Source of the DNA: Massilia timonae CCUG 45783
GTDB lineage: Bacteria; Pseudomonadota; Gammaproteobacteria; Burkholderiales; Burkholderiaceae_D
DNA: 64,000 nucleotides
NCBI RefSeq assembly: GCF_000315425.1
Contig: NZ_JH992925.1
Span: forward strand, 455,128-519,127
Reading direction: 5' to 3'
Positions 28,978 to 41,249 of the stretch are shown piece by piece; the stretch's first letter is position 1; every line of letters starts with the position of its first letter. The notes under the pieces were generated by a model. That model made no database searches. It saw nothing but the letters and a program-made list of their open reading frames with translations, and was not told the origin of the DNA. A program made the position numbers and the translations under genes.

Positions 28978-30297
28978 ATGCGCGCAGGCCTGGCCGCCGT
29001 ATCCCTATCGATCGCATCCATGCTGCCCGCGCTGGCGCATGCGGCGCCGCCCGTCGACCTGGTCTTGTTCGACGGCGCGCCGCGTCAGGGCGTGACCATA
29101 TCGGCGGTCGCTCCCGATACCGAGCATGTCCTGCTGGGCGAACGCGTCGACGCCGCTGCGGGCATCCGCGACACATTCCCCGGCAGCGCGATCGAACTGG
29201 CGCGCGGCGAAGGGCCGGGCGGCGGCAAGGCCTTGACCCTGCGCTGGAACAGGATCTGGAAAAGCGGCGTGCGCTTTGCCGGTCCGCCGTTCGACCTGCG
29301 GCCCTACCTGGCGGCCGGCACCCTGGCCTTCGACCTCAAGGTCGATGCGCTGGACCAGGGCGGGATCCTGTTCCGGGTCGGTTGCGGCGACGACTGCGAG
29401 CGCCACGTGTCCTACGTGTTGCCGGGACGCGCGGCCCAGGGCAAGGGCTGGCAGCGCATCGTGCTGTCGATGTCGTGCTTCGCGCGCGACGGCGACGATT
29501 TCCGGTCGGTGACGCGCCCCTTCCTGCTGGAGGGCACCGGCAGCGGCCAGGTCGGCGTCGCCAATGTGGCGTTCTCCCGGGCCGGCACGCCCAATACCCC
29601 ATGCCCCGACTGGCGCACGGTGGCCGTCACGCCCGACACCCTCAACGAATCGTGGTCGACCGACTGGTGGCTGCCGCGCCACCGCCAGAAGCTGGACGAG
29701 GCCAGGCGCATGGTCTTCGAAGGCCGCAGCCCGCAGCTGGTCTTCATCGGCGATTCGATCACCCAGGGCTGGGAAAAAGAGGGCGCGCAGGTGTGGCAGC
29801 AGAACTATGCGCGCCACCATGCGCTGGCCCTCGGCTTCGGGGGCGATCGCACCGAGAACGTGTTGTGGCGCCTGCAGCACGGCGAAGTGGATGGCATCGA
29901 TCCGAAGGTGGCGGTGCTCCTGATCGGCACCAACAACACGGGGCATCGGCGCGACTTCCCCGCCATCACGGCGGCCGGCATCGCGCGCAATCTGGAAGAA
30001 CTCAAGAAGCGCCTGCCGCGCACCCGCATCCTGCTGCTGGCGATCTTCCCGCGCGATGCAAAGGCGGACGGCCCGCTGCGCCGCCTGAATGAACAGGTCA
30101 ATGCGCGCCTACCGGCGCTGGCCGACGGACGCCAGGTGTTCTACCTCGACGTGAACAAGGCGTTCCTGGCGCCGGACGGCAGCCTGCCGGCGAACGCGAT
30201 GCCGGACTGGCTGCACCCGAACGAGGCCGGCTATGCCATCTGGGCCAGGGCTATGCAGCCGGAGCTGGAGCGCCTGCTGGCGTTGCCCCGGCTGTAG
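28978..30297 (+). CDS. Secreted SGNH esterase with ExoP-like galactose-binding domain
   Basis: A protein of 439 residues with a Sec signal peptide (cleavage after AHA, near residue 22). Residues about 25-205 look like the C-terminal galactose-binding domain of ExoP-type GH3 glucosidases: LTLRWNRIWKSGVRFAG, ALDQGGILFRVGCGDDC and QRIVLSMSCFARDG...RPFLLE. Residues 220-435 form a PAF-acetylhydrolase-like SGNH domain with FIGDSITQGWEKEG (Ser), LIGTNNTGHR and DWLHPNEAGYAIWA (Asp/His). Such enzymes deacylate polysaccharides or lipids in the periplasm or outside. Its 3' end overlaps the convergent nucleotidase gene by 47 bases. Confidence 0.85.
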   Translation: MRAGLAAVSLSIASMLPALAHAAPPVDLVLFDGAPRQGVTISAVAPDTEHVLLGERVDAAAGIRDTFPGSAIELARGEGPGGGKALTLRWNRIWKSGVRFAGPPFDLRPYLAAGTLAFDLKVDALDQGGILFRVGCGDDCERHVSYVLPGRAAQGKGWQRIVLSMSCFARDGDDFRSVTRPFLLEGTGSGQVGVANVAFSRAGTPNTPCPDWRTVAVTPDTLNESWSTDWWLPRHRQKLDEARRMVFEGRSPQLVFIGDSITQGWEKEGAQVWQQNYARHHALALGFGGDRTENVLWRLQHGEVDGIDPKVAVLLIGTNNTGHRRDFPAITAAGIARNLEELKKRLPRTRILLLAIFPRDAKADGPLRRLNEQVNARLPALADGRQVFYLDVNKAFLAPDGSLPANAMPDWLHPNEAGYAIWARAMQPELERLLALPRL

Positions 30298-31249
30298 GCG
30301 CTGCGGACACCGTATCGGCCGCGCGCCGGTTCGCGATCCCGAACGGCACGTGCACCATCGGGATCGTGGCGCCGGGTCCGGAGTCGAGGTGGGCGAGCTG
30401 GTCGTCGAAGAAGATATGCGGCTTGAACACCGACAGCACGCGGCTCTTGTCCATCCCACCCAGGAAGAAGGTCTCGTCGGCCGACACGCCCCAGCTGCCC
30501 AGGGTGGTGACGACGCGCTCGTGCGCCGGCGCGCTGCGCGCCGTGATGATGGCGATGCGCACGATGCGGCGGTAGTCCGGATCGTCGCGCTCGGCGTCTT
30601 TTTCGAGCTGCTGCAGCATGGCCAGCTTGCGGAACATGCCGGCCAGCGGGCCGGGCTGGTGAGGGCGCGCCACGTGCAGCGTTTCGTGGGCGTGGAACTC
30701 GCCCAGGCCGTCGCGCTTGTAAACCGTCTCGGATTCGTCGTCGGCCAGCACGCCGTCGAAGTCGAAGGCCACCCGCAGTTCGATGTCGTCTTCCTCGTCG
30801 GCGATGCGCGAGGGCAGCACCAGGCCGGCCGGATAGTCGACCTCGATCGCGCTCTTGACGTCTTCCTCGTTCGCGCTCAGGAACAGCGCGGCGTTGAAGG
30901 CCGGCAGGTAGGGGTAGGGCGATTTGCCGGTCATGAACACCGCGCGCGAGATATCGAGCCCGTAGTGGGCGATCGAGCGCATCACGCGCAGCCCCGTCTC
31001 GGGCGAGTTGCGCGAGAACAGGACGACTTCGACCGGCGCCTGCTGCGGGAAGCACTTGTTGATGCTGAGGAAGCGCCGGATGAAGGGAAAGGCCACGCCG
31101 CGCGCCAGCACGACGTCGCGCTGGCGTTCCTGGTAGGCGCGGTACTCGTCGGGCCCGTGTTCGAGATAGACCTGGTGCGATTCGGACAGGTCGAACAGCG
31201 CGCTGGAGGCGACGCCGATCACGAGTTTTTCTTCGATGGGAAAGGGCAT
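30251..31249 (-). CDS. 5'-nucleotidase, cN-I-like (PF06189 family)
   Basis: A protein of 332 residues. Family features include VIGVASSALFDLSESHQVY at the start, RNSPETGLRVMRSIAHYGLDI, FMTGKSPYPYLPAFNAALFLS, a HAD-like RVAFDFDGVLADDESE and ITARSAPAHERVVTTL...WGVSADETFFLGGMDK. This is the cytosolic 5'-nucleotidase family that dephosphorylates nucleoside monophosphates. A disordered Ala/Pro tail (about 308-332) overlaps the 3' end of the SGNH gene on the other strand. It directly abuts the HDOD gene upstream (no gap), so the two share a transcript. Confidence 0.88.
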   Translation of the reverse strand: MPFPIEEKLVIGVASSALFDLSESHQVYLEHGPDEYRAYQERQRDVVLARGVAFPFIRRFLSINKCFPQQAPVEVVLFSRNSPETGLRVMRSIAHYGLDISRAVFMTGKSPYPYLPAFNAALFLSANEEDVKSAIEVDYPAGLVLPSRIADEEDDIELRVAFDFDGVLADDESETVYKRDGLGEFHAHETLHVARPHQPGPLAGMFRKLAMLQQLEKDAERDDPDYRRIVRIAIITARSAPAHERVVTTLGSWGVSADETFFLGGMDKSRVLSVFKPHIFFDDQLAHLDSGPGATIPMVHVPFGIANRRAADTVSAAPTAGATPAGAPAPAA

Positions 31250-32233
31250 TCAGGCGTCCTGTCGGTCGGATTGTTCGAGGAGTCGGTCGTAGACGTGGCG
31301 CGCCTCGGGCGCCAGCGCGAGCACGGCGCGCACGAACAGGGGCTGGCCGCCCATGGCCAGCATCTGCAGCTTGGCCAGCCGGTCGGCGTCTTGCAGCAGG
31401 GTCGGCAGGGCGCCGGCGTCGCCCGGGTGCGCGATCGCGTGGCCGATCGCCGGCGGCAGTTCCCACTCGCCGGCGATACGGGCCGAGATCAGGCGCGCCG
31501 CCGCCAGCAGGCGCGCGCCGAAGTCATCGGCGTCGGGCAGGGCGCCCGGCGGCACCAGCTGCTCGACCACGCGAAAGGCCACCATCAGCCCGACGTTGTG
31601 CATCAGGCCCGCCAGATAGGCCTCGAAGGGATCGGCCCCGTGACGCGGCGCCAGCAGGCCGGCCGCCTGCGCGCACAGTTCGGACTGGCGCCACAGTGGC
31701 GGCGCCAGCAGCCGCAGCAGCGGTCCGGCCTGCTGGCTGATGATCGGTCGAAAGGCGACCCGCGCCAGCAGCATGCGCAAGCCGTTCTGCCCCAGCAGCA
31801 GCACCGCGCCTTCGAGGCTGCGGATGGGGGACGCGGGCTGGTAATAAGGGCTGTTCACCTCGCGGATCACCTCGGCGACCAGCACCGGGTCCTGGGCCAC
31901 CTGGCGCGCCAGCGCGCCGGCGCCCGTCGCGCCCTCGCGCAGGCTGCGCAGCAGTTGCGGAATCACGGCGGGCACCCGCGGCACCAGCGCCGCCGCGCCG
32001 TGCGGATCGCGCGCCAGGCGCGCCAGCTCGTCGAGCACCGGGCCGTCGGGGGCGGGACGCCCTGTCACGTGCGGGCCGGCGAGCCAGTGGAAGAAAGCGA
32101 GATCGAGGTCGAATTGCGCCAGTGTCGGATCGTCGGCGGCGGCGCCGGGACGATTTCCTGCGATGTCGGCAGGAACGGCGATCGGTACGCCCGCTTCGCG
32201 CGTGCCGAACAGGCGGGCGAGCCAGCGTTTCAT
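31250..32233 (-). CDS. HDOD-domain protein
   Basis: A protein of 327 residues from ATG 32233. The HDOD domain (about 85-275) is seen in LVPRVPAVIPQLLRSL, VAQDPVLVAEVIREVNSPYYQ, IRSLEGAVLLLGQNGLRMLLARVAFRP, and AYLAGLMHNVGLMVAFRVVEQL (H and N where HD-domain proteins hold HD). HDOD proteins are non-catalytic relatives of HD phosphohydrolases and commonly act in signalling, often with c-di-GMP or two-component proteins. The stop codon directly abuts the start of the nucleotidase gene. Confidence 0.85.
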   Translation of the reverse strand: MKRWLARLFGTREAGVPIAVPADIAGNRPGAAADDPTLAQFDLDLAFFHWLAGPHVTGRPAPDGPVLDELARLARDPHGAAALVPRVPAVIPQLLRSLREGATGAGALARQVAQDPVLVAEVIREVNSPYYQPASPIRSLEGAVLLLGQNGLRMLLARVAFRPIISQQAGPLLRLLAPPLWRQSELCAQAAGLLAPRHGADPFEAYLAGLMHNVGLMVAFRVVEQLVPPGALPDADDFGARLLAAARLISARIAGEWELPPAIGHAIAHPGDAGALPTLLQDADRLAKLQMLAMGGQPLFVRAVLALAPEARHVYDRLLEQSDRQDA

Positions 32234-32285
32234 GGGCGTGCGAAGTTCAGCGAAGAGGGCATGGTTCCATTCTACAGCGAACAGC

Positions 32286-32324
32286 AAACGGCCCGGCCGC
32301 CGCTTGCGCGGCGCCGGGCCGTTT
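32286..32324 (-). terminator. Hairpin downstream of small lipoprotein gene
   Basis: AAACGGCCCGGC (32286-32297) pairs with GCCGGGCCGTTT (32313-32324). The loop can form a further stem. It begins 14 bases after the stop of the 88-residue lipoprotein gene. The following T tract is short (GTTTGCTGTT), so efficiency is uncertain. Confidence 0.6.
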
Positions 32325-32337
32325 GCCGTGACAGCGC

Positions 32338-32604
32338 TTACTGGCCGTTGTTCGAGCCGGTGGTCGTGTGACCGGTATTGGTCGGGGTCGAGGCACTGCC
32401 GGTGGCGTTGGCCGGACCGGTATTCTGCACGTCGTTCGGGCTGATGCCCATCTGTGCATCGACGGTCGGGTTGCCGGTCGAACCAGCCTGGGTCGTGCCC
32501 ATGGACGAGGAACCGCTGGTGGTGCCGGTCGAGTCGGTGGTGTTGCAGGCGGCCAGGGCAAAGGCCATCACGCCGCCCAGCAGTACGGTCTGGATCGTCT
32601 TCAT
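32338..32604 (-). CDS. Small Thr/Ser/Gly-rich lipoprotein (paralogue A)
   Basis: A protein of 88 residues. The signal peptide ends in lipobox LAAC with acylated C20, followed by NTTDSTGTTSGSSSMGTT and a Gly/Asn/Thr-rich, probably disordered tail. It is closely similar in layout to the protein encoded at 32731, including MAFALAACNTTD versus MAFGLAACNTTD. Function unknown. A GGAGAA ribosome-binding site precedes the ATG. Confidence 0.75.
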   Translation of the reverse strand: MKTIQTVLLGGVMAFALAACNTTDSTGTTSGSSSMGTTQAGSTGNPTVDAQMGISPNDVQNTGPANATGSASTPTNTGHTTTGSNNGQ

Positions 32605-32730: not shown

Positions 32731-32994
32731 TCAGCGGCTGACGGGCATATCCGTGGTTTGCTGGTTGTTGCTGGTGGTGCCCGCGGCGGCATTGACGCCG
32801 CTGGCGCCGTTCGCGCCCGTATTCCAGCTGTTTGCGCCGCCGTTGGTGCTCGGGGTTTGCACCCCGCTGCCGGTGGTCGCGCCGGTGCCGGTGCTGCCGC
32901 GCATCGAATCGGTCGTGGTGTCGGTCGTGTTGCAGGCGGCCAGGCCAAATGCCATCATGCCGGCGAGAACTGCGCTTTGAACGGTGCGTTTCAT
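32731..32994 (-). CDS. Small Thr/Ser/Gly-rich lipoprotein (paralogue B)
   Basis: A protein of 87 residues with lipobox LAAC and acylated C21, then NTTDTTTDSMRGSTGTG and a Gly/Asn/Ala-rich tail ending QQTTDMPVSR. It is a tandem paralogue of the gene at 32338, 126 bases away. The coding sequence starts with MKRTVQSAVLAGMMAFGLAAC. Upstream is a GGAGAA ribosome-binding site. Such secreted low-complexity lipoproteins may be stress-related, but nothing in the sequence proves a role. Confidence 0.75.
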   Translation of the reverse strand: MKRTVQSAVLAGMMAFGLAACNTTDTTTDSMRGSTGTGATTGSGVQTPSTNGGANSWNTGANGASGVNAAAGTTSNNQQTTDMPVSR

Positions 32995-33091: not shown

Positions 33092-34864
33092 TCAGGCCGT
33101 GGCTGTTTCCATGGCGAGCCAGTCGAGCAGTTCCGCCGCCGGCAATGGCCGGCTGAAATAATATCCCTGCACCTTGTCGCAGCGCTGTTCGCGCACCACG
33201 TCGAGCTGCGAGCGGGTTTCGATGCCTTCGGCCACAGTCTTCATGCCCAGGCTCTGGGCGACCTTCACGGTGGCCTCGATCAGCACCCGGTGGTGCGAGC
33301 TGGTGTCGGCCTGGCACACGAAGGAGCGGTCGATCTTGACCGTGTCCACCGGCAGCAGGTGCAGGCTCGACAGCGACGAGTAGCCGGTGCCGAAGTCGTC
33401 CAGCGCGAGCTTGACGCCGAGCGCCTTGAGCTCGTGCAGGCGCAGTTGCGTGTCCTGGTCCTGGGCCGCGAGGCTTTCGGTGACTTCGAGCTGCAGGCTG
33501 GCGGCCGGCATGCCGGTCGCGGCCAGCACGGCGGCGACGCTGTCGACCCAGCCGGCCTGGCCGAGCTGGGCGCGTGACAGGTTGACCGCCATCAGGCCCG
33601 GCGCCGCGGCGCCAAGGCGGGCCTGCCAGTCCATGAAGTCGCGGCAGGCGCGCGCCAGCACGAAGTCGCCCAGCGCGCCGATCAAGCCGCACTCTTCCGC
33701 CACCTGGATGAATTCGATCGGCGGCACGATGCCGCGCTGCGGATGGCGCCAGCGCACCAGCGCCTCGACGCCGGCGGCGCGATCGACGCCGCCGTCCGGC
33801 AGCAGGCGCACCACCGGCTGGTAGACCACGAACAGCTGTTCCTCGGCCAGGGCCTGGCGCAGGTCGGCCTCGATGTCGGCGCGCCGCGCCGCGCGCTCGC
33901 GCATGCAGGCTTCGAACACGGCATGGCGGTTGCCGCCGGCGCGCTTGGCCTCGACCATCGCGATGCCGGCGTCGCGCAGCAGGCTGTCGGGATCATGCTC
34001 ATCGCGCATATCGAGCGCCGCCGCATCCGGCCCCCAGGCCAGCCCCAGGCTGGCGCTGCACACGATCTCGTGGCCGCCGATCACATAGGGATGGGCGAGT
34101 GCTTCCAGCAGGCGCAGCGCGACCCGCTCGGCGTCGTGCCGCGCGCGCAGGCCGTCCAGCACCACGACGAATTCGTCGCCGCCGATGCGCGCCGCGAGCT
34201 GGCCGCTGCGGGCGGCAGGCTCGATCATCGTGGTGGGCGGGCGCAGGGCGCCGCGCAGGCGGTCGGCGATGTGCATCAACAGCTGGTCGCCGCCGGCCTG
34301 GCCCAGGCTGTCGTTGAGCTGGCGGAAGCGATCGCAGTTCAGGGTGAGCACCGCGAAGCCGAGTCCGTCCTGCGGCCGTGCCAGCAGGCGTTGCAGCTCG
34401 TCGCGCACCGCCGCGCGGTTGGGCATGCGGGTCAGGCTGTCGGTGCGGGCGGCGCTGCGCAGGCGGCGCGACAGCATCTCTTGCTCGCGCTGGACTTCGA
34501 AGGTGGCGTCGGCCACGGTGGCCATCAGGCGCTCGGGGTCGAGCTTCGTCAGGTTCAGCGATAGCACCTGCAGCGAGCCGCTGGCGGCGTGGTGCACGCC
34601 GACCGGCAGGCGCAGGCCTTCGCAGATCATGCCGGAAGGTTCGATGAAGGCCTCGACCATCGCCGGCAGCTGCGGCGCGACCGGCGCCAGCAGGTCGAAC
34701 AAGTTGTCCAGGCCGGCGTCGGTGGCGAGCGGCATCAGGAGGTTCGAGGCCATCGGATTGAGCATCTCGACCGTGCCGTCGAGCGTGGTCTGCGCCAGGC
34801 CGATCGGGGCCCGGTACAGGAACTGCACCAGCGTTTCATACGCGTCGCCTGGCTCATGCTGCAT
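33092..34864 (-). CDS. PAS-GGDEF-EAL cyclic-di-GMP enzyme
   Basis: A protein of 590 residues. An N-terminal PAS-like module (about 8-130) is homologous to the one in the gene just upstream. The GGDEF domain (about 140-325) has the intact motif GGDEF at 228-232 and the metal-binding NCDRF; the RxxD inhibitory site is absent (RSGQ before it). The EAL domain (about 340-585) has EAL at 367-369, MAVNLSRAQL, LEVTES, LDDFGTGYSSL, VKIDRSFV, AEGIETRSQ and VQGYYFSRP, so all catalytic and Mg-binding positions look present. It could make or degrade c-di-GMP; many such enzymes act mainly as phosphodiesterases. It overlaps the upstream PAS gene by 11 bases. Confidence 0.93.
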   Translation of the reverse strand: MQHEPGDAYETLVQFLYRAPIGLAQTTLDGTVEMLNPMASNLLMPLATDAGLDNLFDLLAPVAPQLPAMVEAFIEPSGMICEGLRLPVGVHHAASGSLQVLSLNLTKLDPERLMATVADATFEVQREQEMLSRRLRSAARTDSLTRMPNRAAVRDELQRLLARPQDGLGFAVLTLNCDRFRQLNDSLGQAGGDQLLMHIADRLRGALRPPTTMIEPAARSGQLAARIGGDEFVVVLDGLRARHDAERVALRLLEALAHPYVIGGHEIVCSASLGLAWGPDAAALDMRDEHDPDSLLRDAGIAMVEAKRAGGNRHAVFEACMRERAARRADIEADLRQALAEEQLFVVYQPVVRLLPDGGVDRAAGVEALVRWRHPQRGIVPPIEFIQVAEECGLIGALGDFVLARACRDFMDWQARLGAAAPGLMAVNLSRAQLGQAGWVDSVAAVLAATGMPAASLQLEVTESLAAQDQDTQLRLHELKALGVKLALDDFGTGYSSLSSLHLLPVDTVKIDRSFVCQADTSSHHRVLIEATVKVAQSLGMKTVAEGIETRSQLDVVREQRCDKVQGYYFSRPLPAAELLDWLAMETATA

Positions 34865-35684
34865 GGGCGTTCTCCTGGCGGCGTGCAGCCGTGTCTTGTG
34901 GTTTGCCGAGATCGCGCAGAATCAGGCAATAGGCGGGGCAGCAGGCGGCGCCATCGAGCTCGCCGGGCAGCGGCTCGCGCTCGGGCAGCGGCGCCACCAG
35001 CGTGCTGCCCCAGAACACGGCGCCGTCGGCGCGCAGGCGGCGGCCCTCGTCGAACGACCAGCCGCTGGCGTCGGCTTCGCGCAGGCGGTCCTGGCGGTAT
35101 TCGAGCGCGATCGTGTCAGGCGGGTAGAAGATCGTGAACGGCCGGCCGACGGCCTCGGGGCCGAAACCGGTGACGCGTCCGACACTCGCGTTCCAGTCGC
35201 ACAGCCGGCCCTGCAGGTCCAGACTCGCCAGAGCGTAATCCTGGACCCCGGCCAGGATGGCGCTCAGCCAGGCGTCGTTCTGGCGCAGCCGGCGCTCGCG
35301 CCGCACCTGTTCGGTGATGTCGTTGATCACCGCCATCACGCGTTCGGGATCGAGCTTGAGCAGGGTGAGCGCCAGGATCTGCGGCGCGCGCCTGGCGCCG
35401 GCGCCGGCTTCCAGGTAGACGTGCAGGCCGTCGCAAATCTTGCCGTAGGGTTCGCCATGCTGGGCAGTGCGCTCGCGCAGCTCGGGCGCCACCCGGGCCA
35501 GTGCCGTGAACAGGTTGTCCAGGCCGCCGTCGTGCGACAGCGGCATCAGGAGCTGGGCCGCGACCGGGTTCATCATGGTGACGTCGCCCTGGACGTTCGT
35601 CTGCACCAGGCCCACCGGCGCCAGGTACAGGAACTGGATCAGCGCCTCGTGCTCGGCGCCGAAATCGGGTGCATCGCGGCTCAT
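34854..35684 (-). CDS. Double-PAS sensor protein
   Basis: A protein of 276 residues with no output domain. The first PAS-like module (about 10-125: LIQFLYLAPVGLVQTNVQGDVTMMNP ... ALTLLKLDPERVMAVINDITEQV) matches the N terminus of the adjacent GGDEF-EAL protein. A second PAS domain (about 135-260) has ALASLDLQGRLCDWNASVGRVTGFGPEAVGRPF, FDEGRRLRADGAVFWGSTLVAPL and a PAS-core end CLILRDLGK. It may relay a signal between the PYP and the c-di-GMP enzyme by protein contact. It lies 6 bases downstream of the PYP gene and overlaps the next gene by 11 bases. Confidence 0.82.
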   Translation of the reverse strand: MSRDAPDFGAEHEALIQFLYLAPVGLVQTNVQGDVTMMNPVAAQLLMPLSHDGGLDNLFTALARVAPELRERTAQHGEPYGKICDGLHVYLEAGAGARRAPQILALTLLKLDPERVMAVINDITEQVRRERRLRQNDAWLSAILAGVQDYALASLDLQGRLCDWNASVGRVTGFGPEAVGRPFTIFYPPDTIALEYRQDRLREADASGWSFDEGRRLRADGAVFWGSTLVAPLPEREPLPGELDGAACCPAYCLILRDLGKPQDTAARRQENAHAA

Positions 35685-35690
35685 CCAGGC

Positions 35691-36083
35691 TTACCGTGGC
35701 TGGCGCTGGACCAGCACGTAGCGCCGGCTCCCGCCCGGGTTCGACAGCAGGCGCAGCGCGACCTTGACCGGACGCATGCGCAGGGTCAGGACGTAGTCGA
35801 TCGTGGCGTCCAGCACGCTGTTGTCTTCCTGGGCGTCTTCGAAACGCTGCGCCACCATGAAATTGTTCATGCAGGGCGCGACGTTCGTGAACAGGGGCTG
35901 GCCCAGCACCCGCTGGGGCGACAGGCCGGCCGCCTGGGATTCGAAGGCGTTGTACAGCGTGACGTTGGTGTCGGCGCCGAAGCCGATGACGCCGAAGTCG
36001 AGCGCGTCGAGTTGTTCCGGCGTGCATTGGTCGAGGCGCGCAGCCAGGTCGGGCGCGTCGAACGCGAGGGGCGTAACGGTCAT
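35691..36083 (-). CDS. pyp: Photoactive yellow protein (PYP) homologue
   Basis: A PAS-fold protein of 130 residues from ATG 36083; the classical PYP of Halorhodospira has 125. It aligns almost without gaps. The chromophore cysteine (C69) is C71 in FTNVAPC. Y42 and E46, which hydrogen-bond the p-coumaryl phenolate, are Y44 and E48 in YNAFES. M100 is kept in LRMRPVKV. T50 and R52 are replaced by A52 and L54, so the photocycle may be tuned differently. PYP binds p-coumaric acid as thioester and senses blue light. Genes for tyrosine ammonia lyase and p-coumaroyl-CoA ligase are not in the window. It heads a three-gene operon with PAS and GGDEF-EAL proteins. Confidence 0.85.
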   Translation of the reverse strand: MTVTPLAFDAPDLAARLDQCTPEQLDALDFGVIGFGADTNVTLYNAFESQAAGLSPQRVLGQPLFTNVAPCMNNFMVAQRFEDAQEDNSVLDATIDYVLTLRMRPVKVALRLLSNPGGSRRYVLVQRQPR

Positions 36084-36125
36084 GGTGTCGGAAGCCGCGA
36101 CGCGGCTATTGAATATGAGAAACAG

Positions 36126-36155
36126 ATGTTGGCATGTGAAAAGGCGCGGTGTCAA
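36126..36155 (-). promoter_or_regulatory. Candidate promoter of the PYP operon
   Basis: A perfect TTGACA on the minus strand (36150-36155) is followed after 18 bases by CAACAT (36126-36131), a weak -10. It lies about 45-70 bases upstream of the PYP ATG and supports the ATG at 36083 over longer in-frame starts. Confidence 0.5.
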
Positions 36156-36576: not shown

Positions 36577-36589
36577 GATGATCTGCTAT

Positions 36590-36720
36590 CGAAAAGGTGC
36601 CTAAACGTGCGCACCGTTCTCTTCCTGCCCCGAGCCGTCCTGTTGACCGTGCTCGTACCTGACAGGCGTGACTTTCCCGCCTGCCGCTGGAACCGCTCCA
36701 GCGGCAGTGCCATGCGTTGC
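36590..36720 (-). ncRNA. Presumed omega RNA at the tnpB 3' end
   Basis: In IS605/IS607 elements the guide scaffold is transcribed from the 3' end of tnpB to the right end of the element, with the guide taken from flanking DNA. The C-terminal codons of this tnpB are outside the conserved nuclease fold and are of the type shared between such elements. Extent is inferred by analogy; no structure was calculated. Confidence 0.35.
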
Positions 36721-37944
36721 CGCATGACTCGCCTCGGGTAGCGCCGTTCTCACCACGAGGGCGTCGGTGGCGAGCCGTTGCAGATTGATCGCGGCGTTCA
36801 CATCACGGTCGTGACGGACACCGCAGGCGCAAATCCAATTGCGCTCACCGAGTTTCAACCCGGTGTAATGCGCGCCGCATGTCGAACACAGTTTGCTGGA
36901 TGGATACCAGCGATCCGCCAGCACCAATAACGTGTCGTAACGTTGCGCCTTGTACTGGAGCTGACGCCGGATCTCGTAAAATCCAACGTCGGCGATCGCA
37001 CGCGCCAGCCGATGGTTGGCCAGCATGCCGCTCACGTTCAGGTCCTCGATCGCTATCGCTTGGTTTTCGCGGCACAGTCGAGTAGTGAGCTTATGGATGA
37101 AATCGGTGCGTACGTGCGTGATGTGCGCATTTAGGCGCGCCAGCGCATGCGCATCCTTTTGTCGGTTGCGCGACACCGGCAAACGTACCCCTTTCGGGAT
37201 CGCGCCCGTGATCCCGGCACCGGCCTTCGCTGCTTTCAGCTTGCGTGCATGGCGCCGCGAGCGGATGCGCAGGCGCCGCTGGCTTGCACGTAGCGGCCGT
37301 GGGGCCGCGATCTTCTCGCCGCTGGACAGAACGGCCGCGGCGCTCACGCCAAGATCGACCCCAACCACGCCATCGCCCTGACGCTGCAGACGGGCCAGTT
37401 GCTCCGGTAGCTTGACCTGCACGGCCAGATACCAATGGTCGGCTTCGCGCGACACGCAGGCGCCCATGATCTTGCCGGGGAGCCGTAGAACCTCGGTCAG
37501 CAAAACCTCGCCGATCTTTGGCAGCACGGCGCACTTGCCCTCAAAACGAATCTTGTCGTTGGCAATATAAAACGCGTCCCGGCAGCGACCTTTCCGTTTA
37601 AACGTCGGTGGATAGGCTTTCTTGCCGGCTTGCCGTTGCTCGACGTAGCGACGCCAAGCTCGCTGAAGATGCGCGAAAGGCTGTGCATGCGCATCGCGGT
37701 GGATTGTTCGCAACCACGGTTTGCCTTCGGCGTCGAGCCAGTCCGGGTGGGCATACTTGATCCCATTGAATTGCTTCTTGAGTTTCATGGCATCCGGCCG
37801 CTGGCCCAGCGCGGTTTGCCGCTGCCACTCTGCCAGCGCCCAGTTCCAGACCTTGCGCGCCGTCCCTGCCGCACGTGCGAAATAGTCGCGCTGCTCGGAT
37901 GTAGCTTCAAGCCGGATGCGATGTGACAGCAACATTGCGCACAT
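36601..37944 (-). CDS. tnpB: TnpB RNA-guided endonuclease (IS607 family)
   Basis: A protein of 447 residues. An N-terminal helix-turn-helix/OrfB region (about 1-60) is followed by a wedge-like part and the split RuvC nuclease: D197 in VGVDLGVSAAA, E300 in AIAIEDLNVSGM and D380 in HDRDVNAAINLQ. A zinc finger lies between (CSTCG at 352-356, CACG at 371-374). All three catalytic acids are kept, so it should be active. TnpB cuts DNA guided by omega RNA made from the element's right end. Its last ~55 codons (ending GQEENGAHV) are low-complexity and probably double as omega-RNA template. It overlaps tnpA by 38 bases. Confidence 0.93.
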   Translation of the reverse strand: MCAMLLSHRIRLEATSEQRDYFARAAGTARKVWNWALAEWQRQTALGQRPDAMKLKKQFNGIKYAHPDWLDAEGKPWLRTIHRDAHAQPFAHLQRAWRRYVEQRQAGKKAYPPTFKRKGRCRDAFYIANDKIRFEGKCAVLPKIGEVLLTEVLRLPGKIMGACVSREADHWYLAVQVKLPEQLARLQRQGDGVVGVDLGVSAAAVLSSGEKIAAPRPLRASQRRLRIRSRRHARKLKAAKAGAGITGAIPKGVRLPVSRNRQKDAHALARLNAHITHVRTDFIHKLTTRLCRENQAIAIEDLNVSGMLANHRLARAIADVGFYEIRRQLQYKAQRYDTLLVLADRWYPSSKLCSTCGAHYTGLKLGERNWICACGVRHDRDVNAAINLQRLATDALVVRTALPEASHAATHGTAAGAVPAAGGKVTPVRYEHGQQDGSGQEENGAHV

Positions 37945-38548
37945 CCTTGTTCAATGCAACATCCAACTGGCGGCGATAGTTGCGCAGCCCATCTAAACGA
38001 CTTGAAAAGCAATGCACGATGGTCATCATGTCTTGCACCATTTCCTGCTCGGGGGACAGGCGCTCCTGATTCAGTACGAGAAGCTCGCAGCCATGCACGT
38101 GCGCTATGTGTTCGAACCATTCGTACCCGAAGCGCGTCAGGCGATCCCGATGCGCCAGCACCAGGGTGCGGACCTCGCCTCGCCCGATCGCGTCGGTCAG
38201 CTCCAGCAAGCGCGGGCGCTTGAAATTGAGCCCGCCGCCGATCTCTTTGATGAACTCGACATTTGCCAGTCCACGGGCTGTGCAAAATTCTTCCAGAACC
38301 CGGCGCTGATTGCGTAAATCAGGCTTTTGCGCAGCGCTAGACACCCTACAGTAAGCGATGATCCGGTATGGCACCGGGCGTGACTGCAAGCCGATCCGCT
38401 CAGCAATCTGCGTTTCGCTATAGAGGCGCAGGCCGGTTGGGCTGCGCGCTAATGGAGAGAACGTGCCACAGCGATCCCAGCGTTGCAACGTCTTGGGTGT
38501 CACGCCAAGCCGGCGCGCTGCCGCGCCGGTCTTCAGCATCATTTCCAT
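37907..38548 (-). CDS. tnpA: IS607-family serine recombinase TnpA
   Basis: A protein of 213 residues. The N-terminal MerR-like helix-turn-helix (about 4-50: LKTGAAARRLGVTPKTLQRWDR) binds DNA. The serine recombinase domain has IIAYCRVSSAAQKPDLRNQ with nucleophile Ser70, and LVLAHRDRLTRFGYEWFEHI with conserved arginines. The order of DNA-binding domain before catalytic domain is specific to IS607 enzymes. It catalyses transposition through a circular intermediate with little target specificity. It starts 226 bases before the PBP1A stop. Confidence 0.93.
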   Translation of the reverse strand: MEMMLKTGAAARRLGVTPKTLQRWDRCGTFSPLARSPTGLRLYSETQIAERIGLQSRPVPYRIIAYCRVSSAAQKPDLRNQRRVLEEFCTARGLANVEFIKEIGGGLNFKRPRLLELTDAIGRGEVRTLVLAHRDRLTRFGYEWFEHIAHVHGCELLVLNQERLSPEQEMVQDMMTIVHCFSSRLDGLRNYRRQLDVALNKDVRNVAVTSHPA

Positions 38549-38641
38549 GGTGTTCTCGCATGTACGCTTACGTAGATTCAGACACCATCATTGTGACTAG
38601 AGTTCCGCTCCTGTGAGGTGATGCATGAAGTGATGCGTGAG

Positions 38642-38683
38642 GTGTTGCTGAGAGAGTGTTGCTGAGAAGGTGTTGCTGAGAAA
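38642..38683 (-). repeat. 3 x 14-bp direct repeats at IS607 left flank
   Basis: GTGTTGCTGAGA occurs at 38642, 38656 and 38670, a strict 14-bp period with two variable bases per unit. Just before it GTGATGCRTGA-like copies occur (about 38617-38640). Such iterated sites beside tnpA may be recombinase-binding sites at the element's end. Confidence 0.8.
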
Positions 38684-38736
38684 TTGTGCGAACCGCACCC
38701 GTGCCGGCCGTCGGACTGCTGGCCGGGAACTGGTGA

Positions 38737-38784
38737 GATTACCACATGGATTACCACATGGATTACCACATGGATTACCACATG
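38737..38784 (-). repeat. 4 x 12-bp tandem repeat across the PBP1A stop codon
   Basis: Four exact copies of GATTACCACATG. On the minus strand the unit CATGTGGTAATC supplies the last two codons (Met, Trp) and the TAA stop of the penicillin-binding protein gene. Copy number does not affect the protein because each copy has the stop in frame. Confidence 0.95.
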
Positions 38785-41249
38785 GGGTTTTGCGCGGGTG
38801 GTGGATTTGACGGCGCTGGCCCGGCCGCTGGCGCAGGGGCCGGCGCCAGCGGCGGACCTACCTGCGGCGCCACCTGCGGCAGAGCCTCGATGGCCGGCCG
38901 TTCGTCGAACGGCGAGGCGTCGGGCGGCACTTCCTGGCTGCCGGGCGGGATGTCCAGCGGCTGCTCGACGGGCGCCTGCTCGATGTCGATCGTGCGCGTC
39001 TCGCCGGCGTCGATGAATTCCGGGTAGATCCAGTCCTCGCCGTCGTGCACCACGTCCTCGGGCGGGGTGCGTTCCACGGGCGGCGCCTTGGCCAGCGCCG
39101 CCCGCATGTAGTCGATCCAGATCGGCATGGCGAGCGTCGAGCCGAACTCGCGCCCGCCCAGCGAACGCGGTTCGTCATAGCCCATCCACGACACCGCCAC
39201 CACATTGCCCGCATAGCCGGCGAACCAGCCGTCGACGGCGTCGTTGGTGGTGCCGGTCTTGCCGGCCAGGTCTTGCCGGCCCAGCTGTCTGGTGGCGCCG
39301 GCGGCGGTGCCGAAGCGGGCCACGTCGCGCAGCATGCTGTCGACCACGAAGGCGTTGCGCGCGGTGATTGCGCGGTTGGCTTCGTTCTTCGCTTGCGGCG
39401 GCGCGGTCGCGAGGATGACGGCGCCATTGCCATCCTGGATGCGCGAGATCAGGTAGGGCTTGACCCGGTAGCCGCCGTTGGCGAACACCGCATAGCCGCC
39501 AGCCAGCTGCAGCGGCGTGACGGCGCCGGTGCCGAGCGCCATCGTGTAGTTCTTTGGGTGGCGCGCCAGGTCGAAGCCGAAGTGCTCCAGGTACTGATGG
39601 GCGAAGTCGACCGACACGGCGCGCAGCACGCGCACCGTCGGCACGTTCTTCGATTTCACCAGCGCCTGGCGCAGCGTGACCTCGCCGTCGAACACGCCGT
39701 CGTCGTTCTGCGGCGTCCAGGGCGTGTCGAGCGTGGCGCCGGGCAGCTCGATCGGCTCGTCCAGGATGCGGGTGGTCGGCGAATAGCCTTTTTCCAGCGC
39801 CGCCGAATACACGAAGGGCTTGATGCTCGATCCCGGCTGGCGCCACGCCTGGGTCACGTGGTTGAACTTCTGCAGGTTGTAGTCGAAGCCGCCCACCAGC
39901 GCATGGTAGGCCCCGGTGTCGGCGTCGATCGCGACGAAGGCCGCGGCCACCTGCGGCACCTGGGTGATGGCCCAGTCGCCATCCTTGCCTTTGCTGATGC
40001 GGACGATGGCGCCCGGGGTGATCCTGACGTTCTCGCGCGCCTTGGCGGACAAGGCATTGGCCGCGAATCTGAGCCCGGCGCCGCGGATGGCGACTTCTTC
40101 GCCCTCCAGCGTATCGACCAGCACTTCCTGCGCGCTCGCCTCGAGCACGACGGCCGGCAGCAGGCCGTCGCTGCCGGGGCGCTTCTGCAGCGCGTCGACG
40201 ATCGCTTCCTCGCGTTCCTCGGCTTCGAGCGGCAACACGATGCGCGCTTCCGGGCCGCGGTAGCCATGGCGCTGGTCGTAGGCCAGCACGTTGCGCCGCA
40301 CCGAGTCGTAGGCGGCGTTCTGCTCGGCCGCCAGGATGGTGGTGGTGACGGTGATGCCGCGCGTGTACGACTCTTCGCCGAACTGCTGGTAGACCGCCTG
40401 GCGCGCCAGTTCGGCCACGTATTCGGCGCGGGTGTCGAAGGATTGGCCGGCGTCGTGCTTGACGCGCAGCGGTTCGGCCAGGGCCTGGCGGTACCGGGCT
40501 TCATCGATCTCGCCCAGTTCCAGCAGGCGCTTGAGGATGGCGTGCTGGCGCGCCTGCGCGCGCTTGGGATTGGACACCGGATTGGTGCGCGCCGGGTTCT
40601 GGGGCAGGCCGGCCAGCATCGCGGTCTCGGCCAGCGTGAGCTGGTCGAGCGTCTTGCCGAAATAGCTGCGCGCCGCGCTCGAGAAGCCGTAGGAGCGCTG
40701 GCCCAGGTAGATCTGGTTCATGTACAGCTCGAGGATCTGGTCCTTGGTGAGCGAGTCCTCGATCTTGTAGGCCAGCGCGATCTCGGTGAGCTTGCGTGCG
40801 ATGGTCTTCTCGTTGGTGAGGAAGAAGTTGCGCGCCACCTGCATCGTGATGGTCGACGCGCCTTGCCGGAAGCCGCCGCGCAGGTTGGCGCGCGCCGCGC
40901 CCAGCGCGCGGATGAAGTCGATGCCGCCGTGTTCATAGAAACGCGTGTCCTCGATCGCCAGCACGGCGGACTTCATCATGGGAGGGATCTTCGCGATCGG
41001 CACGAAGTCGCGGTGCTCGACGCCGAACTGGCCGATCAGCACATTGTCGGCCGTGTAGATGCGCAGCGGGATCTTGGGACGGTAGTCGGTCACGGCGTCG
41101 ATCGGCGGCACCTTGGGCAGGATCGCCGTCATCACGTAGACCGCGGCGCCGGCGCCGGCCAGCAGCACGGTTGCCAGCACGATCAGGATGAACGCACGAA
41201 GGTGTTTCATGCGGATTGGGTGTCCGGACTTCTTGTTGGTGTCGCTCAC
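38775..41249 (-). CDS. mrcA: Penicillin-binding protein 1A (bifunctional class A)
   Basis: A protein of 824 residues. A transmembrane anchor (about 17-43) is followed by the glycosyltransferase domain with E100 in IEDTRFYEHGGID, GASTITMQVARNFFL and KIEDSLTKDQILELYMNQIYLG. An OB-like linker follows. The transpeptidase has S474-S-I-K477 (PGSSIKPFVY), KSKN and the KTG box in DLAGKTGTTND. The C terminus (about 760-824) is Pro/Ala-rich. It polymerises glycan strands and cross-links them in the periplasm. It is divergent from the OPT transporter gene. The alternative start M14 would shorten the cytoplasmic tail. Confidence 0.96.
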   Translation of the reverse strand: MSDTNKKSGHPIRMKHLRAFILIVLATVLLAGAGAAVYVMTAILPKVPPIDAVTDYRPKIPLRIYTADNVLIGQFGVEHRDFVPIAKIPPMMKSAVLAIEDTRFYEHGGIDFIRALGAARANLRGGFRQGASTITMQVARNFFLTNEKTIARKLTEIALAYKIEDSLTKDQILELYMNQIYLGQRSYGFSSAARSYFGKTLDQLTLAETAMLAGLPQNPARTNPVSNPKRAQARQHAILKRLLELGEIDEARYRQALAEPLRVKHDAGQSFDTRAEYVAELARQAVYQQFGEESYTRGITVTTTILAAEQNAAYDSVRRNVLAYDQRHGYRGPEARIVLPLEAEEREEAIVDALQKRPGSDGLLPAVVLEASAQEVLVDTLEGEEVAIRGAGLRFAANALSAKARENVRITPGAIVRISKGKDGDWAITQVPQVAAAFVAIDADTGAYHALVGGFDYNLQKFNHVTQAWRQPGSSIKPFVYSAALEKGYSPTTRILDEPIELPGATLDTPWTPQNDDGVFDGEVTLRQALVKSKNVPTVRVLRAVSVDFAHQYLEHFGFDLARHPKNYTMALGTGAVTPLQLAGGYAVFANGGYRVKPYLISRIQDGNGAVILATAPPQAKNEANRAITARNAFVVDSMLRDVARFGTAAGATRQLGRQDLAGKTGTTNDAVDGWFAGYAGNVVAVSWMGYDEPRSLGGREFGSTLAMPIWIDYMRAALAKAPPVERTPPEDVVHDGEDWIYPEFIDAGETRTIDIEQAPVEQPLDIPPGSQEVPPDASPFDERPAIEALPQVAPQVGPPLAPAPAPAAGPAPSNPPPAQNPMW

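Follow-up and report, generated by a model that had tools for sequence, protein, structure and literature searches.

PASN, a candidate receiver domain for clade C photoactive yellow proteins, in a Massilia timonae operon with a shortened cyclase gene

Among the photoactive yellow proteins (PYPs), those of clade C are often encoded beside GGDEF genes, and a biofilm role has been proposed for them in the text of PMC9664959; the text of PMC12826048 counts 29 pyp operons with GGDEF genes and 22 with EAL genes. The passing of the signal by free PYP is named in the latter text as an important gap, and PMC13250908 (2026) states in its text that no partner has yet been identified for the PYP of H. halophila. 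Here we describe a pyp operon in a window of 64,000 nucleotides of Massilia timonae CCUG 45783 (GCF_000315425.1, NZ_JH992925.1, positions 455,128 to 519,127 of the forward strand); the window is the whole stretch analysed, coordinates are those of the window unless a locus label (L) is attached, and G labels denote genomes. In this operon, a gene for a clade C-type PYP is followed by two genes that have an N-terminal PAS domain in common, here named PASN, which we propose as the domain on which PYP would act in enzymes of cyclic di-GMP (c-di-GMP) turnover.

As far as their text describes them, the published clade C pyp-GGDEF/EAL loci resemble the window operon in the clade marks, the linkage to c-di-GMP enzymes and the proposed biofilm outcome. 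The PYP of Idiomarina loihiensis, linked to biofilm by van der Horst (2009) as cited in these two papers, is likewise a single-domain protein, for which action in trans on a neighbouring GGDEF protein has been suggested; unlike that of the window, it is assigned to clade A in the text of PMC9664959. In Ppr and Ppd, too, PYP serves as the input to a kinase or c-di-GMP output, but there it is fused in one chain with phytochrome, whereas in the window PYP is a separate protein and it is the outputs that carry PASN. The tandem PAS folds of DosP and FixL resemble the protein of the middle gene; however, DosP and FixL are haem sensors, each forming one chain with or without an output, whereas the middle protein of the window has lost its output domain.

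An earlier note on this DNA did not know the three-part layout with a PAS relay as described. This holds only in part, since the occurrence of PYP beside GGDEF/EAL genes was published in 2022 and 2025; what is new here is PASN as a partner-domain hypothesis for clade C PYP. In the text of PMC9664959 and PMC12826048, whose figures and supplements may draw the three-gene layout, no shared partner PAS domain is named, and no cyclase/phosphodiesterase pair with one receiver, cyclase loss or fusion is mentioned. A literature search joining photoactive yellow protein and Massilia found no paper, and no PYP-partner PAS domain was named in the titles and abstract openings of the literature searched.

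PASN and its association with clade C PYP

The first gene (pyp; 35691..36083, on the minus strand like all features of the operon) encodes 130 amino acids that matched solved PYPs in phmmer with a best E of 9e-15. The chromophore-site residues Tyr42, Glu46 and Cys69, by which PYP is defined in the text of PMC9664959, are all kept, and their equivalents are invariant in 81/81 aligned sequences (the window and 80 relatives); in two Caballeronia SBC plasmids, Phe replaces Tyr42. The match to TIGR02373 (E 7e-21, 74.5 bits) lies below the 143-bit equivalog cut-off of this model, which is known as narrow (PMC9664959, text). The same text gives the loss of Phe92, Phe96 and Trp119 with retention of Met100 as the marks of clade C, a clade for which it lists no characterised representative. 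As read from the alignments, the window protein has Ile, Leu and Tyr at the three positions and keeps Met100, and by these marks it is a clade C PYP. It carries no output domain, and this, together with the gene order, confirmed the earlier description of an output-less photoreceptor linked in an operon to c-di-GMP enzymes. Plasmid-borne PYPs of this type were found annotated as ‘phosphonate transporter’, ‘PAS domain-containing’ or ‘hypothetical’ protein.

The pyp gene is separated by exactly 6 bases from the middle gene (34854..35684, 276 amino acids), which in turn overlaps the third gene (33092..34864, 590 amino acids) by exactly 11 bases, a spacing that the earlier note had given correctly; with pyp adjoining a GGDEF/EAL gene on one strand, the locus is a pyp-GGDEF/EAL operon. 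PASN occupies about residues 8-132 of the middle protein (35289..35663) and about residues 5-129 of the third (34478..34852), and these two copies are 50% identical. At E 0.001, none of 59 PASN members was matched by Pfam and none by NCBIfam, and the PASN profile matched no PDB chain at E 1, which may explain why the domain goes unnamed in the published neighbourhood studies. In the predicted model of the middle protein, residues 25-122 adopt PAS topology, with a predicted local distance difference test score (pLDDT) of 84-92 in most ten-residue blocks and 56 in one. In Foldseek, the whole protein matched DosP and FixL best (E about 1e-11); both have tandem PAS domains, and the template modelling (TM) score was only 0.33-0.35 because the domain arrangement differs. 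PASN also contains a nearly invariant Cys.

A scan for relatives of the window PYP produced 102 confirmed candidate loci, and in the best 80 of these a PASN open reading frame (ORF) was found downstream of PYP in every case (80/80; same strand, within 4.5 kb), some of these ORFs being fragments (e.g., L058 and L070). The same relationship was seen in a family sample of 284 genomes, in which PASN occurred in 58 genomes, PYP in 58 and both in 57, i.e., PASN was present in 57/58 PYP-positive versus 1/226 PYP-negative genomes; G486 of this sample has a weak partial PYP match in a 687-residue frame and no PASN. By position, 105 of the 112 PASN places lay no more than 2.5 kb downstream of a PYP. Of the 78 PYP hits of this sample, two weak ones (46 and 37 bits) were set aside, and the remainder were divided into a clade C-like band of 55-120 bits (typically 64-91) and those over the TIGR02373 cut-off (clade A-like); PASN was found downstream of 60/62 of the former versus 0/14 of the latter. 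This contrast between two PYP types within the same genomes stands despite the kinship of the genomes.

An order sample of 399 genomes, overlapping with the family sample, had PASN in 11 genomes and PYP in 14, and all 11 PASN genomes had PYP (Fisher 4e-19, a value made too small, like all p-values of this association, by kinship among the genomes). Two genomes with PYP and no PASN, G024 and G190, have weak partial matches in frames of over 1000 residues, and 21 of the 23 PASN places were within 2.5 kb downstream of PYP. Among 195 genomes of the order examined at E 0.1, PASN scores were bimodal, being either at least 77.6 bits or at most 25.7. In 195 Myxococcota genomes, PYP was found in 48 (seven of them weak) and PASN in three, at four places (one split by a frameshift), all directly downstream of PYP (4/4). 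Lastly, 72,556 plasmid records contained PASN in 11 records, at 13 places, the hosts being Caballeronia, Rhizobium, Methylobacterium, Sphingomonas, Polymorphobacter and Indioceanicola; a clade C-type PYP was directly upstream of a PASN-PAS-GGDEF gene in all 11. There were 13 plasmids with a PYP match, and the two that had no PASN are from Comamonadaceae (PYP 65% identical) and Niveispirillum (29%). Overall, the linkage of PYP and PASN is far beyond chance, and the neighbourhood comparison asked for in the earlier note indeed found it kept in Massilia and Duganella and far beyond; it spans Beta- and Alphaproteobacteria, Myxococcota and one Gemmatimonadota assembly, with three types of output.

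Enzymes that carry PASN

The outputs joined to PASN are GGDEF, GGDEF-EAL and histidine kinase, the last either as HisKA-HATPase (L049, L060, L066, L090, L091, L130) or with an added receiver (HisKA-HATPase-receiver; L077, L132). In L049 (8131-9549) and L060 (8130-9518), a PASN histidine kinase comes third in the operon, after PYP and PASN-GGDEF-EAL, and in these two loci a single PYP may act on a phosphorelay as well as on c-di-GMP. In a PASN tree of 125 columns, in which many forks were unresolved, the middle-gene and third-gene copies fell largely into separate groups; the duplication of PASN is thus old.

The middle gene of the window consists of PASN and a second, S-box type PAS domain (about residues 134-262; 34899..35285; TIGR00229, PF00989), and was described in the earlier note as an adaptor-like double PAS. 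Comparison with relatives did not bear this out as the design of the system, since the typical middle gene encodes a PASN-PAS-GGDEF protein of about 440 amino acids. GGDEF was present in 63 of 66 aligned middle genes (65 loci and the window; 63/68 when two fused forms were added), and the DxD and GG(D/E)EF motifs were intact in 62 of these 63 domains, the one in L080 being degenerate. The three that lack it, and hence do not have the C-terminal GGDEF of a PASN-PAS-GGDEF cyclase, are those of the window, Massilia sp. HP4 (L002) and M. arenae (L026). When the DNA was aligned with that of four relatives, a single clean loss of ~0.5 kb was seen, as a result of which the shortened gene is overlapped by the one that follows; the junction maps approximately to 34848..34870, a range within which the exact breakpoint is not determinable. 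Furthermore, the middle genes of the window, HP4 and M. arenae form one group in the PASN tree (SH-aLRT, an approximate likelihood ratio test, 91). The short middle gene of the window is, therefore, a secondary loss shared with these two strains, and a purpose-built three-part relay was rejected as the general design because the relatives carry a full cyclase in the middle.

The shortened gene is an open frame in all three strains, and the ratio of nonsynonymous to synonymous substitution rates (dN/dS), given here and below without a significance test, was 0.15-0.36 in four of six PASN or second-PAS comparisons; in four pairs of intact relatives, that of PASN was 0.39-0.46. Thus, the shortened protein is mostly under purifying selection, and its interpretation as a pseudogene is disfavoured by the dN/dS values and the open frames. 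In Massilia eurypsychrophila (L023) and Pseudoduganella flava (L037), which lie on branches of the PASN tree other than the window’s lineage, the middle GGDEF is also gone and a single open frame encodes PASN-PAS-PASN-GGDEF-EAL. The loss of GGDEF and these two fusions indicate that the ‘adaptor’ is a pared-down cyclase, of which PASN-PAS was kept coupled to the enzyme in separate lineages. Other altered middle genes are the L070 stump, of only 60 amino acids, and that of G623 (L124, 3960-5682), in which a frameshift separates PAS from GGDEF and whose genome has only one PASN match; this is either another instance of cyclase loss or an artefact of sequencing.

The third gene adds GGDEF (residues 140-313; 33926..34447) and EAL (residues 333-573; 33146..33868) to PASN. 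In the EAL domain, all 15 checked positions, which we take to be the catalytic ones, are intact in the window, as expected of an active EAL; 14 are invariant in 65/65 aligned rows, and one Gln is missing in a single row. The GGDEF motif itself is unaltered in the window and in 51/65 rows, with D, E and F kept in all 65 and one or both Gly varying in 14. In GGDEF domains, metal is bound by the Asp that opens the DxD motif. This residue is Asn in 61/65 rows (Asn176 in the window), Asp in three (L049, L060 and L075, all changed elsewhere) and Ser in one, and where the window has Asn176, the three best-matching solved GGDEF relatives carry Asp. The earlier claim of an enzyme with intact GGDEF and EAL motifs is, therefore, correct to the letter of the motifs, but the GGDEF domain lacks the Asp of an active diguanylate cyclase. 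The third protein is most likely a phosphodiesterase with a regulatory GGDEF, and a two-way cyclase/phosphodiesterase is disfavoured by the Asp-to-Asn change.

A proposed trans-acting module and its rivals

We propose that blue light is sensed by clade C PYP as a free protein of one domain, which docks in trans on PASN at the N-terminus of output enzymes and changes the state of whichever output PASN is joined to. In most relatives, the same receiver domain would thereby serve two opposed outputs, namely a diguanylate cyclase and an EAL-type phosphodiesterase whose GGDEF is degenerate. In the window lineage, where the cyclase domain is deleted, the phosphodiesterase would be the remaining output, the leftover PASN-PAS would most likely still bind PYP and/or pair with the phosphodiesterase’s own PASN and thereby tune that enzyme, and the expected net effect would be light-dependent breakdown of c-di-GMP. 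We put the probability of this trans-acting module at about 0.57. That PASN is a dedicated, hitherto unrecognised receiver of PYP on cyclases, phosphodiesterases and kinases, and that the PASN-PAS protein of the window modulates its sister enzyme, is also a reading that we favour, if only narrowly. Action of PYP in trans, as suggested in the earlier note, is probably right. Two stretches of clade C PYP, residues 70-84 (at the chromophore Cys and directly following it) and 96-112 (surrounding the equivalent of Met100), numbered as in the window protein, had the lowest mean entropy among the stretches compared (0.29 and 0.36 bits versus 1.24 overall; 51 sequences thinned to 80% identity). They may be a natural docking face, lining of the chromophore being another possible reason for their conservation. 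In AlphaFold, a read-through chain of PYP and the adaptor scored a pLDDT of 86 and a predicted TM score (pTM) of 0.57, versus 77 and 0.52 for the adaptor alone, with a different alignment; confidence over PASN was likewise higher in the longer chain, values from which no interface can be read. The gain is weak evidence for the mechanism.

Several observations weigh against the proposed module. The pTM of the joint chain is only 0.57, the PASN profile was seeded with loci linked to PYP, and scoring covered only the top first-look candidates of each genome. The two partners are also found apart. G125 has four PYPs and no PASN, and G473 has two fragmentary PYP matches with no PASN downstream; six PASN genes of the family sample are away from any PYP in genomes that have PYP elsewhere; two PASN genes of the fragmented assembly G164 are not PYP-adjacent, one of them lying beside a truncated PYP-like piece (L104); and G461 has an orphan PASN-PAS-GGDEF gene (L123, 4488-5879) with no PYP match in the genome at E 1e-6. 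The last of these offers a chance to see the role of PASN in the absence of PYP. In addition, the Comamonadaceae plasmid L149 (CP099603.1, 4001-8366) bears a clade C-like PYP and no PASN gene; that PYP converges on a large PAS-domain protein, and a change of partner is possible. Two PASN comparisons with the shortened gene of HP4 gave dN/dS values as high as 0.47 and 0.73, and the window genome has no clear gene for synthesis of the chromophore, as detailed below.

The HP4 values would fit a middle gene that is a decaying cyclase remnant with no present role, PYP acting directly on the PASN of the phosphodiesterase, and the absence of the cyclase domain from three strains, the frameshift split in G623, the stump of L070 and the degenerate GGDEF of L080 point the same way. 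Nonetheless, such decay is unlikely, given that the frame is open in all three strains with low dN/dS in four of the six PAS-domain comparisons, that the overlap with the next gene is kept, and that M. eurypsychrophila and P. flava retain PASN-PAS fused to the enzyme. These natural fusions of PASN-PAS with the enzyme, like the purifying selection on the shortened protein and the position of the middle gene between pyp and the enzyme gene, would also suit a serial relay, in which the double PAS is the sole binding partner of PYP and in turn switches the enzyme. We consider a relay of this kind distinctly improbable, since the enzyme has its own PASN, and some PYP loci lack a middle gene and have only a PASN-GGDEF-EAL-type gene (e.g., L034, L076, L028) or only a PASN histidine kinase (L066, L077); the enzyme’s own PASN and the loci devoid of a middle gene also mean that the middle protein is not needed in general.

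PYP might also be coupled to c-di-GMP without being a light sensor here, either as an apoprotein in the absence of tyrosine ammonia lyase (TAL) or as a sensor of p-coumarate, another plant phenolic or redox state. The single aromatic ammonia lyase of the window genome lies in a hut-like cluster, its neighbours being presumably urocanase-like and N-formylglutamate-hydrolase-like genes, because of which it is regarded as HutH-like; no TIGR02372-type coumarate ligase over the cut-off was found in this genome. A chromophore gene pair (TAL and the p-coumarate ligase, pCL) was thus not recognised in the operon or the genome, although the genome may have such enzymes of other families. Three ligase-like proteins of the window genome matched no ORF of the 80 loci at E 1e-15, queries that may be too distant for this comparison. 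In 23 examined genomes whose PYPs are all clade C-like, the number of lyases was one in 11 and two in 12; of the 14 genomes in which a PYP exceeded the cut-off, six had a lyase no more than about 3 kb away from that PYP. Against a function other than light sensing, Tyr42, Glu46 and Cys69 are invariant but for Tyr42 in the two Caballeronia plasmids, lyase homologues flank 6/80 clade C loci (histidine and tyrosine ammonia lyases were not told apart), and on plasmids a PYP-cyclase pair is followed by a 4-coumarate-CoA ligase gene (Rhizobium tumorigenes) or an AMP-binding gene (Methylobacterium, Sphingomonas). Absence of TAL from the operon is itself common, as TAL is present in only 5% of pyp operons in the text of PMC12826048. 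The clade, therefore, probably uses p-coumarate, which the window strain may need from outside, and a PYP that does not sense light here is a shade less probable again than the serial relay. Least probable of all is that PASN and PYP merely travel together as an operon and never touch, PASN sensing a ligand of its own; the association is itself genetic, and the nearly invariant Cys could serve a ligand, but the association holds across the taxa and three outputs listed above while other domains change, and the over-cut-off PYPs of the same genomes have no PASN (0/14).

If the proposed module is correct, PASN becomes a concrete and testable partner-domain candidate for a whole clade of PYP, and PASN plus PYP could, if they do bind, make a small two-part optogenetic module. 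PASN does not solve the case of H. halophila, since it does not accompany the over-cut-off, clade A-like PYPs sampled here.

Neighbourhood of the operon

A promoter shared by the three genes had been suggested in the earlier note, and one sigma-70-like match was indeed found upstream of pyp (36112..36140, minus strand, reading from 36140 to 36112). This candidate, identified by consensus match only, is weak, agreeing with the consensus at 9/12 positions, and was the single match versus 0.4 expected in shuffles of the region. An Rfam scan of the window gave no match above gathering scores.

About 0.5 kb upstream of pyp and beside a DUF1428 gene lies an element (36580-38863) that we take to be IS607-like, with a MerR-resolvase protein (37907-38548) and a TnpB with a Cas12f1-like domain (36601-37944). 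Its aligned flanks are ~0.2 kb apart in M. arenae and ~0.6 kb in HP4, versus 2.3 kb in the window; the element is, therefore, a recent insertion. Downstream of the operon are two similar tandem lipoprotein-like ORFs (32338-32604 and 32731-32994; 88 and 87 amino acids), both with an LAAC stretch near the N-terminus and neither with a Pfam match. They are followed at 30251-32287 by genes for an HDOD protein and a 5'-nucleotidase family protein, a neighbourhood that could be aligned, wholly or partly, in L026, L002, L003 and L009.

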